From: an uncultured Bacilli bacterium
GTDB lineage: Bacteria; Bacillota_I; Bacilli_A; RF39; UBA660
Length of the DNA stretch: 54,977 bases
Assembly: GCA_944372455.1 (NCBI GenBank)
Contig: CALVZF010000003.1
Location: forward strand, 1 to 54,977
Reading direction: 5' to 3'
In this document: positions 37,690-50,296 of the stretch, piece by piece
How positions within the stretch are numbered: position 1 is the first letter of the stretch
How the letters are laid out: the number at the start of each line of letters is the position of its first letter
Position numbers and translations under genes: made by a program
The notes under the pieces: generated by a model
Databases searched by the model: none
What the model was told of the DNA's origin: nothing
The model's input: the letters and a program-made list of their open reading frames with translations, nothing else

Positions 37690-38325
37690 TTATTTTTCTT
37701 TTTTGTGCATACTTACTAATAAACCAATTGGTATTATAATTATAGTTGCTACTACGCCTATTACAAATTGATTAATTAATTGAATTACTAATTCATTTGA
37801 AGGTATAGTTCCTACTTTTGAAATTAATACAAATATAACTGCATCTAAAATTATTCCTAATAAAACAGCTAAAGCAATCGCAACTCCTTTAAAAGTGTTT
37901 TTTCTTGCAAATTTGTAAAGATAAATACATATAATTTGACTAACTACAAATCCAATTAACGATGCTATTATTGATCTTAAAGCTGGGAAAACTATTCCAG
38001 CTGCACTTGAAGTTCCAAATAAAACGGCTAAAGCATTAGATTTATCAATAGTATCAATTTGATTAGGTAAATTAAGTGTAATTGTTATAAGTACCAATAC
38101 AATTATTTGAATCAAAACTGCACTTAATACACTTTTAAGTGAAGATTTATGTCCATATAACTCTGTAATAGCTACTGTACATAAAAATGTAAATGGATAT
38201 ACAAAGAAACTACAAGCTAAAGGTAGTTTTGCAACCACAGTAATTTTTAGTGCTAAAATATTAGACATAACTAATAAAACAGCTAGTAACGCTGAAAAAA
38301 ATATTTTTCTTCCATCCTTTGTCAA
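37690..38325 (-). CDS. Queuosine precursor transporter, YhhQ/VUT family
   Basis: The start is TTG at 38325 behind AGGAGGG with 6-nt spacing. The 211-aa protein has six predicted membrane helices and the family motif FVYPFTFLCTVAITELYGHK. YhhQ proteins import preQ0/preQ1 or queuine for tRNA queuosine modification. No preQ1 riboswitch is visible in the short leader. Confidence 0.88.
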   Translation of the reverse strand: MTKDGRKIFFSALLAVLLVMSNILALKITVVAKLPLACSFFVYPFTFLCTVAITELYGHKSSLKSVLSAVLIQIIVLVLITITLNLPNQIDTIDKSNALAVLFGTSSAAGIVFPALRSIIASLIGFVVSQIICIYLYKFARKNTFKGVAIALAVLLGIILDAVIFVLISKVGTIPSNELVIQLINQFVIGVVATIIIIPIGLLVSMHKKEK

Positions 38326-38384
38326 AATAATCCCTCCTACTATCTCTATCTACATTATATATTAATAATAAATAAAAGTAAATA

Positions 38385-40319
38385 TTATTTTTTTTTGTTA
38401 TACATTAAAAATTTTAAATTTAAAATAAGAATTTCAATTATTAGAATTATTGGTAAAATACCAATAATTCTAACACAAGATAAAATGACAATAGTTAAAA
38501 GATTTATAAAAGTTAAAACGCTCAATATAAAAATCAAACGCTTAGTTTTTTCTAAAAATTTATATAGTGTAATCATAGTTTTTCTAAAGGTATTAAACGA
38601 ATTATCATATAAAATTATATCAGAAAAATCCATTAAAGCACTTTTATTAAATTTACTAAGAGTAATTTTTATGCTAGAATTTTCAAAATTTATTAAATCT
38701 TTTAAAGAATTAAATGTTGTAATAGTATAAAGAGAATTCTTTTCTAATAAATCAATTATTCTCTTTTTATTTTTATCCTTTATTTTAGAAAATATTCTAT
38801 TTTTTTTAAGTTTATTTAATAATTCTTCATCTGAGCTTTCAGTTATTATTTTATCATCTAATATTTCTTCAGTATCAATACCTAAATTTTCTCCCAAAGC
38901 TTTTGAAATAATTTTATTATCATTAGTAAATATTAATGTTCCTATATTTTTATTGTTGTATTCTTTGATAAAACTTTCAATACCATGTTTAGGAAAGTCA
39001 TATAGTGCTATTAATCCGTCAAAATGAATATTATAATTAAATATATCTAATTCTATAGAGTTAATTTGCTTAGAAGCTATTCCTATTACAACAAGTCCTT
39101 TTTTATATAAACTTTTTTGAAAATTATGTAACCTATATTTTTCTTCTACATCAAGTTCACAAATGTCAAATATACTTTCTAAATCTCCAGATACAAATAA
39201 ATGATTTTTATTTTCAAATTTATAAATTGATGCATAAAGATTATTTTTTTCATCATAGGGATATTGTTTTACTAAATTATTAAAAGTTACTTCCTTGTTA
39301 TAATATTTATTTATAGAATCAAACATATCACCTTTTTTTGAACTTGGATTTGAGAGAATTGCATTTAATAATAATTCATCTTTAGGAATATTATTTGAAT
39401 ATATTTCTTTTACTTTCAAAATACCTTCAGTAATAAAATTTTCTTTGTTTAAACACAAATAATTAATTTTTGAAATTTTGCGAATAATTTTTTTATTTTT
39501 TACATATATATTATATTTTAAAGCTTTATTAAAATATGTATTCATAAAACTTTTTAAAGTATAACTAAAATTTAGTAACAATACGGAAATTAGAATTGAA
39601 GAGTTAATAATAAACCCACTATATACATCTAAAGTAAAAATTACTACTAATAGTGATATTAAATATATAACTATACAAATTATATCAACAACATTTGATA
39701 TTTTATCCATCTTATTTTTAGATTCTAATTTATTTAAATAGAAAAAAGTATTTAATCCTATATTAGTAATTTTTATAGTAGCTGTACCTTTTAAAATTAA
39801 GCTACCTTCATATAAATAATTAGATTTTAAAATATCATTTTTATTTAATAATGATGTATTTTTTTTAACAAAGTTATTAAATTCTTTTACATATAAATTT
39901 TTAGCTTTTACTATTAAACCATCTACTGGTACCCTTTCTCCTTCTTTAACAATTAGAAGATCATCTATAGTTATTTCACTAGACTTTATAAGTTTTTCTT
40001 CTCCATTTCTAATAACTGTATATTTATAATTAAGTAATTCACTATTTTCTAACATATATTTATTATTTATTTTATTATTGATTAATCTAACAATAATTAA
40101 TATTAGGTAAGAAATTAGTATAATTATTGCAACTAAATATTCTTTTTTTAAAAGATTTATAATTATAATTATCACTACTGGTAAAATTATTAATCCTACA
40201 ATATTAATAATAGTTGATATTGTATTATATTTAGTGGTAGATGTTTTAATATTTTTACCATATAATTTTTGATTATTATCAACTTGTTTATCTGTAAGTC
40301 CTTTTAATACTTCTTCCAT
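38385..40319 (-). CDS. P-type-ATPase-like protein lacking all catalytic motifs
   Basis: The 644-aa protein has an intact reading frame and follows the P-type ATPase fold from N-terminal cation-ATPase region to the TM5-6 end. GERVPVDGLIV and LYDFPKHGIESFI (for the usual EDPPRPGV) align well. The phosphorylation motif DKTGT reads NKENF (YLCLNKENFITEGILKV), so the acceptor Asp is Asn. TGES is absent, TGDN reads TNDN, and the hinge GDGxNDA is replaced by TTFNSLKDLI. It therefore cannot run a P-type cycle. The open frame and conserved spacing suggest selection for a non-catalytic role. It is followed in the same direction, upstream, by the Clp-like gene at 40369. Confidence 0.85.
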   Translation of the reverse strand: MEEVLKGLTDKQVDNNQKLYGKNIKTSTTKYNTISTIINIVGLIILPVVIIIIINLLKKEYLVAIIILISYLILIIVRLINNKINNKYMLENSELLNYKYTVIRNGEEKLIKSSEITIDDLLIVKEGERVPVDGLIVKAKNLYVKEFNNFVKKNTSLLNKNDILKSNYLYEGSLILKGTATIKITNIGLNTFFYLNKLESKNKMDKISNVVDIICIVIYLISLLVVIFTLDVYSGFIINSSILISVLLLNFSYTLKSFMNTYFNKALKYNIYVKNKKIIRKISKINYLCLNKENFITEGILKVKEIYSNNIPKDELLLNAILSNPSSKKGDMFDSINKYYNKEVTFNNLVKQYPYDEKNNLYASIYKFENKNHLFVSGDLESIFDICELDVEEKYRLHNFQKSLYKKGLVVIGIASKQINSIELDIFNYNIHFDGLIALYDFPKHGIESFIKEYNNKNIGTLIFTNDNKIISKALGENLGIDTEEILDDKIITESSDEELLNKLKKNRIFSKIKDKNKKRIIDLLEKNSLYTITTFNSLKDLINFENSSIKITLSKFNKSALMDFSDIILYDNSFNTFRKTMITLYKFLEKTKRLIFILSVLTFINLLTIVILSCVRIIGILPIILIIEILILNLKFLMYNKKK

Positions 40320-48146: not shown

Positions 48147-49121
48147 TTAATTTTGAAAATTTATTTGTTCTTCCATTATTAATGGATATCGTATTAGTTC
48201 ATTTCCATTTAAATTTTCTTTATGCATATTTACTGCACTAATTTGATGATTATCATAAGTTGTGTAATAATAAATACCTTTATTTATATTGCAACATGAG
48301 GTATAAAGAGTGATTTCATACTTTCCATTGCCTAAATCACAACATCCTCTTTGTTGTTCAACAGAATTAAGAATATGAAAAAATTGACTAACACTATTCA
48401 TTTCGTTATCTGAAGAAACAGAGTTCATTTTTGTGAAAGCTACTCTTACAAATCTAGATTGGGATGACAAATCTCCAGGAAGTCCTATTGCACCCATTCC
48501 ACGACTATATTCTTGTAAATCAAGTCCTCTTGCAAACTTAGACTCTGGAGACTTTGGAGATAAATTTATATAATTATTCAAACTAAACATTTGTACATCA
48601 AATGGAGGATTATTTGTTAAAACCCCTATTGGATTTTCATAAATTTTAATGCCCTCTTTTACCGCTTCAACAGTTATAGATTCTGTACTATCCGAAATAA
48701 TCCAATGAAGCATTGCTACTGGTAAATCATTATTAAATGTGACATTTAATAAATTTATTTTTCTAATTAAATTTTGGGCTTCTTTTACAGTAGTACATTG
48801 ACTTAGAATCCATGGAATAAATTCAAATTGGGCAATATTATCTTTTCCTTTTATACTTTCATTGTACGATGCATTACCGACAAAATTTAGTCCAGCTATA
48901 GCTAACCCTTTTTCATTAATTGCATCATAATATAGTGGATAATTATTTATAACATGGGCCATTCCAATTATTGCGTAATTAGATTTTATACTCTTTTTTT
49001 CTCTAAAGTTAAATATATAGTTTCTAGGAGTAATAGTAACTTCATCTCCGTACGAAAACTCATAATCTAAAGTACGCCCAAAATAAAAATCTTTCGTCTT
49101 ATAAGTTGCTGCTGTACACAT
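48147..49121 (-). CDS. Choloylglycine hydrolase family protein (bile salt hydrolase/penicillin V acylase type)
   Basis: The 324-aa Ntn hydrolase has the catalytic Cys2 (MCTAATYKTK) exposed after Met removal, Arg16 and Asp19 in FGRTLDYEF, Asn79 in LAIAGLNF, Asn170 in GVLTNNPPFD and Arg223 in SQSRFVRVAF. That is the full BSH/PVA active-site set. These enzymes hydrolyse conjugated bile salts or related amides in the gut. No signal peptide is present, so it is cytoplasmic. BSH versus PVA activity cannot be decided here. Confidence 0.93.
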   Translation of the reverse strand: MCTAATYKTKDFYFGRTLDYEFSYGDEVTITPRNYIFNFREKKSIKSNYAIIGMAHVINNYPLYYDAINEKGLAIAGLNFVGNASYNESIKGKDNIAQFEFIPWILSQCTTVKEAQNLIRKINLLNVTFNNDLPVAMLHWIISDSTESITVEAVKEGIKIYENPIGVLTNNPPFDVQMFSLNNYINLSPKSPESKFARGLDLQEYSRGMGAIGLPGDLSSQSRFVRVAFTKMNSVSSDNEMNSVSQFFHILNSVEQQRGCCDLGNGKYEITLYTSCCNINKGIYYYTTYDNHQISAVNMHKENLNGNELIRYPLIMEEQINFQN

Positions 49122-49173
49122 AAAATTTTCTCCTTTTCTTTTATAAAACCTAAATATTAATTTAATTAATAAA

Positions 49174-50193
49174 TTATTTTTCTTTTTTATTATTGAAAAA
49201 CCTATGAATTAAAAATTTATTATTCTTTTTCTTTGCTTCTAATGGTTCAGATTTTTTTAGTAGAAAATATATTATAGGTTGACTTAACATTCTTGAAAAA
49301 AATCTAGTTGTTCTTTTAGTTTCTTTATCAACTCTATTATAATATGTTTCTAATGTATCATGTCTAAAATGCAAAATATCGTTTAATTTGTCGCCATCTA
49401 GAAAATATCCACAATGAAAATTCTTTTCTGCAAAAGCCATATCTTTCAAATATTTAATATTTAAACCATATATTTTAAACATATTAGTTAAGAATTCTCT
49501 ATAGGTTGTTCTACATTTTTCTCCACCGCCTAAATTGAAAATTTTGTGTTTTAATTCTTTTTCATATTCTATAGATTTTACAAATGCTGTAGCTGTATCA
49601 ATTGTAGTAGCTATTTCTAATTTAGTATCTAGTGGCATGTGAAACATCAATGGATCAATATCTGGTCTTCCCATTATACCAGTAAGTCTAAAAATAGTAT
49701 AATTAATTTTAGAACTTATTATCATCTTTTCAGTTTCTATTTTAGTTAATGCATAATAATCCCCTTCACTTGGATTTAAATCATCACCTACTTTTATCCA
49801 GGGATTACTAATTCTATCTCCATAAACACTAACAGAAGAAGAATAAACTAAAAAACAATTTTTATTTGTTTCGTTAATCGCATCTACAATATTTTTAGTA
49901 CCAAAATAATTTACTTTTCTAGTTAGTTCTGGATTTTTATCCGCTAATGGAGGAATAACAGCAGCTAAATGGATAACAACATCTTTACCCTTAACTAAAG
50001 TTTTAATCAGTTCATAATCATTTATTGAACCATATACTATGTTTATAACATTTTTATAAATTTCTAATCTTTTTCTTGATTTTTTATTATCTAAATCTAA
50101 AACAGTAATTTCATATTTATTTTTTTTCATTAATTGTTTTAGTGTCTCATATCCTATACTACCTGCTGCTCCAGTAATTAAAATTTGTTTCAT
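49174..50193 (-). CDS. NAD-dependent epimerase/dehydratase family protein
   Basis: The start at 50193 (MKQILITGAAGSIGYETL) follows AGGAGATGG. The 339-aa extended SDR has the NAD-binding TGAAGSIG, VIHLAAVIPP, catalytic SSSVSVYG and YYALTK (Tyr-x3-Lys), and a basic, partly hydrophobic C-terminal extension (FSRMLSQPIIYFLLKKSEPL). The substrate is probably a nucleotide sugar or a small carbonyl; it cannot be specified. Confidence 0.88.
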   Translation of the reverse strand: MKQILITGAAGSIGYETLKQLMKKNKYEITVLDLDNKKSRKRLEIYKNVINIVYGSINDYELIKTLVKGKDVVIHLAAVIPPLADKNPELTRKVNYFGTKNIVDAINETNKNCFLVYSSSVSVYGDRISNPWIKVGDDLNPSEGDYYALTKIETEKMIISSKINYTIFRLTGIMGRPDIDPLMFHMPLDTKLEIATTIDTATAFVKSIEYEKELKHKIFNLGGGEKCRTTYREFLTNMFKIYGLNIKYLKDMAFAEKNFHCGYFLDGDKLNDILHFRHDTLETYYNRVDKETKRTTRFFSRMLSQPIIYFLLKKSEPLEAKKKNNKFLIHRFFNNKKEK

Positions 50194-50296
50194 AAAACCA
50201 TCTCCTGAATTAATATTCAATTTAATTATAGTCCAATATTTAAAATTATTAAACATAAATTATTAATTTTTACTAATATTATTAATGGTGAGTATT

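Follow-up and report, generated by a model that had tools for sequence, protein, structure and literature searches.

The reading frame at 38385–40319 on the minus strand of the window (the whole stretch of 54,977 nucleotides analysed here) encodes a protein that is a P-type ATPase by descent and that, as read from its alignments, fails all tested functional hallmarks of this superfamily. P-type ATPases are textbook pumps. The gene described here nevertheless appears to be maintained across three genera as a dead pump, and its product probably has a non-pumping role at the membrane. Our preferred explanation, which we hold to be likely though well short of certain, is a membrane-anchored pseudo-P-type ATPase that is kept for the contacts of its A and N domains, as a scaffold or regulatory partner, and that neither pumps nor hydrolyzes ATP.

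The frame opens with ATG and runs, as the initial annotation had read it, through 644 codons with zero internal stops; given that a random codon is a stop at a rate of 10.9% for the local base composition, 644 open codons are expected by chance with P = 5e-33. By its sequence matches, the product is a genuine P-type ATPase homologue. It is matched over its full length by TIGR01647 (NCBIfam; residues 7–636, E 1.6e-28) and by Pfam E1-E2_ATPase (E 1.2e-13), and a phmmer search against the PDB returned Ca2+-, Mg2+- and Na,K-ATPases, with the Listeria Ca2+-ATPase, MgtA and the Na,K-ATPase as the best solved relatives. This significant full-length similarity places it in the superfamily by descent. 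Structure prediction and comparison with cation ATPases, proposed in the initial annotation as a check on the P-type fold, agreed with the profile searches: an AlphaFold2 model built from a four-row alignment reached a pLDDT of 56, and all 50 of the 50 matches listed in a structural search with this model were P-type ATPases (best Foldseek E 1e-20, Z ~20). The low pLDDT points to the shallow alignment rather than to misfolding, since the intact pump of genome G025 (described below) reached 55.7 under the same four-row conditions. The source genome (1.15 Mb, 94.7% complete, 49 contigs) encodes three other P-type ATPases whose DKTGT and GDGxND motifs are intact; none of the three adjoins the dead pump within the window. 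An assembly artefact as the source of the dead gene was ruled out, as independent assemblies agree on this kind of gene.

Motif replacements in the window protein were read from its alignment to an intact relative (Table 1). The substitutions and losses first noted at DKTGT, TGES, TGDN and GDGVND were all recovered in this alignment. The phosphorylatable Asp that a functional P-type ATPase carries in DKTGT is absent (NKENF), the A-domain TGES loop is deleted (ESSLTGESV becomes EFN-----NFV), TGDN reads TNDN, and the Mg2+-binding GDGxND motif is replaced (TGDGVND becomes TFNSLKD, residues 535–541). Further losses, beyond those noted at first, comprise the nucleotide lysine of the N-domain KGA motif (SGD), the M4 PEE motif and helices M7–M10; the protein stops at the end of M6, ~150 residues short of the intact relative. 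Thus, where a P2/P3 cation pump has ten helices and an M4 proline/acid motif, the window protein has six helices and LLN. The statement that the whole P-type architecture is recognisable therefore stands for M1–M6 and the A, P and N domains, but not for M7–M10. Similarly, the description of a fold without any catalytic residues is right for the main motifs and slightly too strong in its wording, because D467 (the Asp of TGD), K518 (the P-domain Lys) and D541 (the second Asp of GDGxND) survive. With Asp changed to Asn at the phosphorylation site, and the E-loop, the Mg site, the ion site and M7–M10 gone, we infer that the window protein is catalytically inactive. The positions of SERCA F487, K492 and K515 are occupied by Y, N and S in its N domain, and this loss of nucleotide-binding residues makes ATP sensing, one form of the sensor role suggested at the outset, unlikely for the window copy, though three relatives keep the residues.

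Table 1. Positions of the pseudo-P-type ATPase, its domains and altered motifs, and its neighbours in the window
Feature	Position	Strand	Remarks
Queuosine-precursor transporter (TIGR00697 / Vut_1)	37690..38325	-	Downstream neighbour of pump
Promoter-like element ATTTACTTTTA-N-TATAAT	38354..38382	-	Between pump stop and transporter start
Pseudo-P-type ATPase frame, 644 aa	38385..40319	-	M1–M6 and A, P, N domains; M7–M10 absent
Site of GDGVND	38697..38714	-	FNSLKD; first Asp lost, last Asp kept; alignment to intact relative
Site of TGDN	38916..38927	-	TNDN, residues 465–468, Asp kept; alignment to intact relative
N domain	39096..39401	-	Identity 0.40 dead vs 0.33 active
Site of N-domain nucleotide-binding KGA	39183..39191	-	SGD; alignment to intact relative
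Site of DKTGT phosphorylation motif	39435..39449	-	NKENF, residues 291–295; alignment to intact relative
Site of M4 ion-site motif PEE	39570..39578	-	LLN; alignment to intact relative
A domain	39720..40031	-	Identity 0.49 dead vs 0.52 active
Site of TGES dephosphorylation motif	39870..39884	-	EFN/NF, loop ~5 residues shorter; alignments
AAA ATPase, ClpA/ClpB D1 type only, 327 aa	40369..41352	-	Upstream neighbour of pump

A search for the same loss pattern among relatives, also proposed at first, yielded five further dead copies, so that the family comprises the window copy and five relatives (26–46% identical) in three genera. All six frames are open, end after M6, and lack both TGES and the Mg-binding Asp of GDG. 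The window genus is represented by three genomes in our collection, and both of the others carry an open dead counterpart, namely G001 (37% identical over the alignment; DKFGI, SEDK and GNKVND, no TGES) and G002 (33%; DKTNY and TEDN, GDG deleted, no TGES). Two copies from a second genus, G260 (DKSKF) and G163 (DKTGI), came from a profile search of 386 family genomes and likewise end after M6 without TGES or GDG, while the sixth copy, of 596 aa and more worn still, was found in G181 of a third genus by inspecting the neighbourhood of the AAA gene. Three of the relatives' genomes are uncultured Bacilli or Bacillota MAGs. The loss of the same catalytic elements in six orthologues argues that the pump was rightly called dead, as far as motifs can indicate this. 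The extent of loss varies: the phosphorylatable Asp is kept in four of the five relatives (G001, G002, G260 and G163), and the nucleotide residues are kept in the G001, G260 and G163 copies and lost in those of the window and G181. One genome of the genus of G260 and G163 carries a complete pump at the same locus. This orthologue (G025, loci L020/L119; MAG CALVYE01, uncultured Bacilli bacterium BRZ_FK__bin87) lies, as in the window, between the AAA and transporter genes, is 31% identical to the window pump and has the subfamily block FDICDLNVEEKY in common with it; unlike the window pump, it has 811 aa, ten helices and all motifs (TGES, DKTGT, TGDN, GDGVND and PEE).

The order of genes in the dead loci is a ClpA-D1-like AAA gene, then the pump, then usually the queuosine-precursor transporter. 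At all six dead loci, and at the active one of G025, the AAA gene adjoins the pump, and the transporter gene follows directly in five of the six as well as in G025. The G181 locus (L091 3743-6547) is rearranged with the AAA–pump pair kept, an opposite-strand HIT-family gene replacing the transporter after the dead pump. A promoter-like ATTTACTTTTA...TATAAT element is kept in all five dead loci with the transporter gene (window, L023, L024, L057 and L056; two genera) and was looked for but not found at the G025 locus, whose full-length pump runs into the start of the transporter gene with an ATGA overlap. Upstream of the pump, a ribosome-binding-like AGGATGTGA is kept in three dead copies, the window included. 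The AAA protein, 84% identical within the window genus, resembles the first ClpA/ClpB ATPase domain only, with no N domain and no second ATPase domain, and in G025, G260 and G163 it bears an N/Q/Y-rich N-terminal extension of ~130–200 residues. Elsewhere in the window (48147-50256, minus strand), a choloylglycine (bile salt) hydrolase-like gene lies beside a 3-beta-HSD/epimerase-like gene, which is consistent with a gut habitat.

Is the gene maintained, or is it decaying slowly? A slow-dying pseudogene, in which the need for the pump has gone and only recent inactivation or chance has left the frame open, would account for several properties of the locus. The dead copies drift toward N, I and K, the GC content of the pump is 16–20% vs 25–30% in the AAA and transporter neighbours, and dN between G000 and G001 reaches 0.70 for the pump, whereas the AAA gene has 0.09, the histidine kinase 0.17 and the transporter 0.32. 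Only 48 of the 140 columns that are invariant in active pumps remain in the dead copies (92/140 lost). Frame decay does also occur in the active subfamily, in which L046 (G150:C10:20799-22682) has five in-frame stops (3 TGA, 2 TAG) ahead of a frame that is otherwise motif-complete; L046 is an apparent true pseudogene and a contrast to the dead-pump family. Together, fast evolution and the N/I/K and AT drift look like weak constraint. Against a dying gene, frame decay at this locus, named beforehand in the initial annotation as the result that would tell against a maintained gene, was looked for in the six orthologues and found in none. Neutral drift simulated from the intact pump or from G001 to 36–45% identity produced a mean of 34–40 stops (range 24–50), whereas zero were observed per copy. 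In the dead copies, second codon positions have diverged far less than third positions, and a codon model rejected omega = 1 for each pair of dead copies tested (LR 189–421); only this test of omega = 1 was used, as dS and third positions are saturated (GC3 ~9%) and the value of omega is not estimable. The check for purifying selection in relatives thus came out in favour of a maintained gene, with catalytic residues lost and the frame under purifying selection across species, as for a maintained pseudoenzyme. Accordingly, the codon comparisons and six open orthologues support a maintained gene over an ageing pseudogene, and we regard slow decay as improbable. The fast dN and low GC do indicate that the constraint, though real, is weaker and narrower than that on a working pump.

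Where this constraint lies was revealed by a comparison of mean pairwise identity per domain between five dead copies and six active subfamily pumps, the active set being phylogenetically wider. Apart from the A and N domains (Table 1), identity is lower in the dead than in the active set throughout: 0.36 vs 0.62 in the P domain after N, 0.27 vs 0.54 in M1-M2, 0.24 vs 0.53 in M3-M4, and 0.29 vs 0.62 in M5-M6. The difference between A + N and TM + P identity is +0.118 in the dead copies and -0.179 in the active pumps, a domain by state interaction of 0.297 (95% CI 0.233–0.363, permutation p 1e-4). Likewise, sites conserved in active pumps are kept in dead copies at fractions of 0.69 in A, 0.54 in N, 0.40 in P and 0.23 in TM. 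Conservation within the dead family peaks in the N-domain block LES[IL]FDIC.LDVEEKY (window residues 380–395), and the A-domain strands around residues 102–190 come next. Uniform neutral decay would have flattened the differences between domains, and residual pump function would have left the P domain and the membrane part most conserved; the pattern fits neither, and such heterogeneous constraint also speaks against the dying gene considered above. Selection on the pump has shifted to the A and N domains rather than ceased.

The same pattern bears on two further explanations, in which the protein still moves something across the membrane. In the first, a passive channel or gated leak, ions would pass through the membrane part of six helices, with A/N-domain movement as the gate. 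Although core helices M1–M6 are all retained as hydrophobic segments, their identity in dead copies is only 24–29%, M4 is not lined by any conserved polar or charged residue, and what constraint is left sits in the soluble domains, which makes a channel very improbable. Alternatively, an ion or lipid could be transported by non-canonical chemistry, as was argued for human ERMA/TMEM94, which is reported to drive ATP-dependent Mg2+ uptake despite comparable losses (DKQGI, GSSANL, no TGES; PMC13322241). The phosphorylatable Asp of four relatives and the nucleotide lysine of three would be compatible with such chemistry. However, Asn stands at the phosphorylation site of the window protein, an exchange that inactivates ERMA, SERCA and the Na,K-ATPase (PMC13322241); neither the M4 ion site nor M7–M10 remains, and conservation across the dead family is lowest in the membrane helices. 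Moreover, a second group found no ATPase activity for TMEM94 (PMC12134183), and its status as a pump is disputed. We consider an unorthodox active transporter unlikely.

Whether catalysis was lost once or repeatedly depends on the tree consulted. Species trees built on rpoB and on the genes flanking the pump nest the intact G025 within the dead group, next to dead G163. The full pump tree unites the dead copies in one clade (100/100), also when the motif columns and M7–M10 are removed, and an AU test rejects a grouping of G025, G163 and G260 (p 0.0002 and 0.003). The common N/I/K drift can, however, draw dead copies together in this tree. A tree of the A and N domains, which are still constrained and have comparable rates, joins intact G025 with dead G163 (91/80), in agreement with the species tree, while rejecting neither grouping. 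The species and A + N trees argue for repeated loss of catalysis; the promoter-like element common to five dead loci, not found in G025, argues for a single origin, followed by restoration or replacement in G025. We offer only tentatively the idea that pumps lying between the AAA and transporter genes in this clade lost catalysis and M7–M10 convergently, in several events, and became dead six-helix scaffolds whose A and N domains stayed under selection; the A/N head would then have a second, non-transport function older than the loss.

These findings lead us back to the pseudo-P-type ATPase acting by contact. Its ancestor would have been a P2/P3-like cation pump that lost phosphorylation, dephosphorylation, Mg2+ coordination, nucleotide binding, the ion site and M7–M10. 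Selection would keep a six-helix membrane anchor, in line with the membrane segments M1–M6 of the dead copies, which remain hydrophobic, and this anchor would expose intact A and N domains on the cytoplasmic side. The protein would then most likely act by protein contact, as a scaffold or regulatory partner of a membrane or cytosolic protein. We infer that the gene is expressed and has such a role. The initial suggestion of a scaffold or regulatory subunit fits the constraint, with A and N kept and the ion path and P released. Candidate partners would be either the ClpA-D1-like AAA protein encoded beside the pump or an active P-type pump of the same cell. The AAA protein is a constant neighbour of the pump, yet does not depend on it. 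As an obligate partner it is a weak candidate, as 340 of 386 family genomes carry the AAA gene, which is present family-wide without the pump, and a pump beside it was absent from all seven outgroup loci inspected outside the three genera. In the more specific form of our explanation, the dead copy would join an active P-type ATPase in mixed oligomers, formed via the A and N domains, and serve it as a decoy or regulatory partner. The three intact pumps of the source genome would offer targets, oligomeric P-type pumps exist (dimeric MgtA, PMC10925321; hexameric Pma1, PDB 7vh5), and in other enzyme families dead paralogues are known to activate live enzymes (PMC5201418). No specific target pump is indicated, however, and no intact pump adjoins the dead gene in the window; this form is conceivable but rather doubtful.

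If confirmed, a contact-based pseudo-P-type ATPase would mean that selection can act on the A and N domains separately from transport, and would call for caution against annotating dead-pump proteins as cation-transporting ATPases. The occurrence of a live pump at this locus in one species, and of dead versions in related species, also offers a natural comparison for A/N function without pumping. A literature search lacking most subscription journals found no published bacterial P-type ATPase family that is dead yet maintained. Among solved structures, the best sequence relatives of both the dead and the intact forms are the Listeria Ca2+-ATPase LMCA1 (PDB 6zhf/9euq) and other P2A pumps, which, unlike the window protein, are catalytically complete and have ten helices. 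Pseudoenzymes in general (PMC10211241) and the trypanosome prozyme (PMC5201418) resemble the dead pump in having lost catalytic residues with the fold under selection, but belong to other enzyme families. Going by published descriptions, the nearest parallel appears to be human TMEM94/ERMA, of which the dead pump, if confirmed, would be a small bacterial counterpart. Both combine a P-type architecture with A, P and N-like domains, altered DKTGT and GDGVND motifs, a short TGES loop without the motif, and a gene under selection despite these losses. In contrast, TMEM94/ERMA is a eukaryotic ER protein with ten helices and large insertions that keeps the Asp, whereas the window protein has Asn at this site and six helices, and lies within a bacterial pump subfamily.
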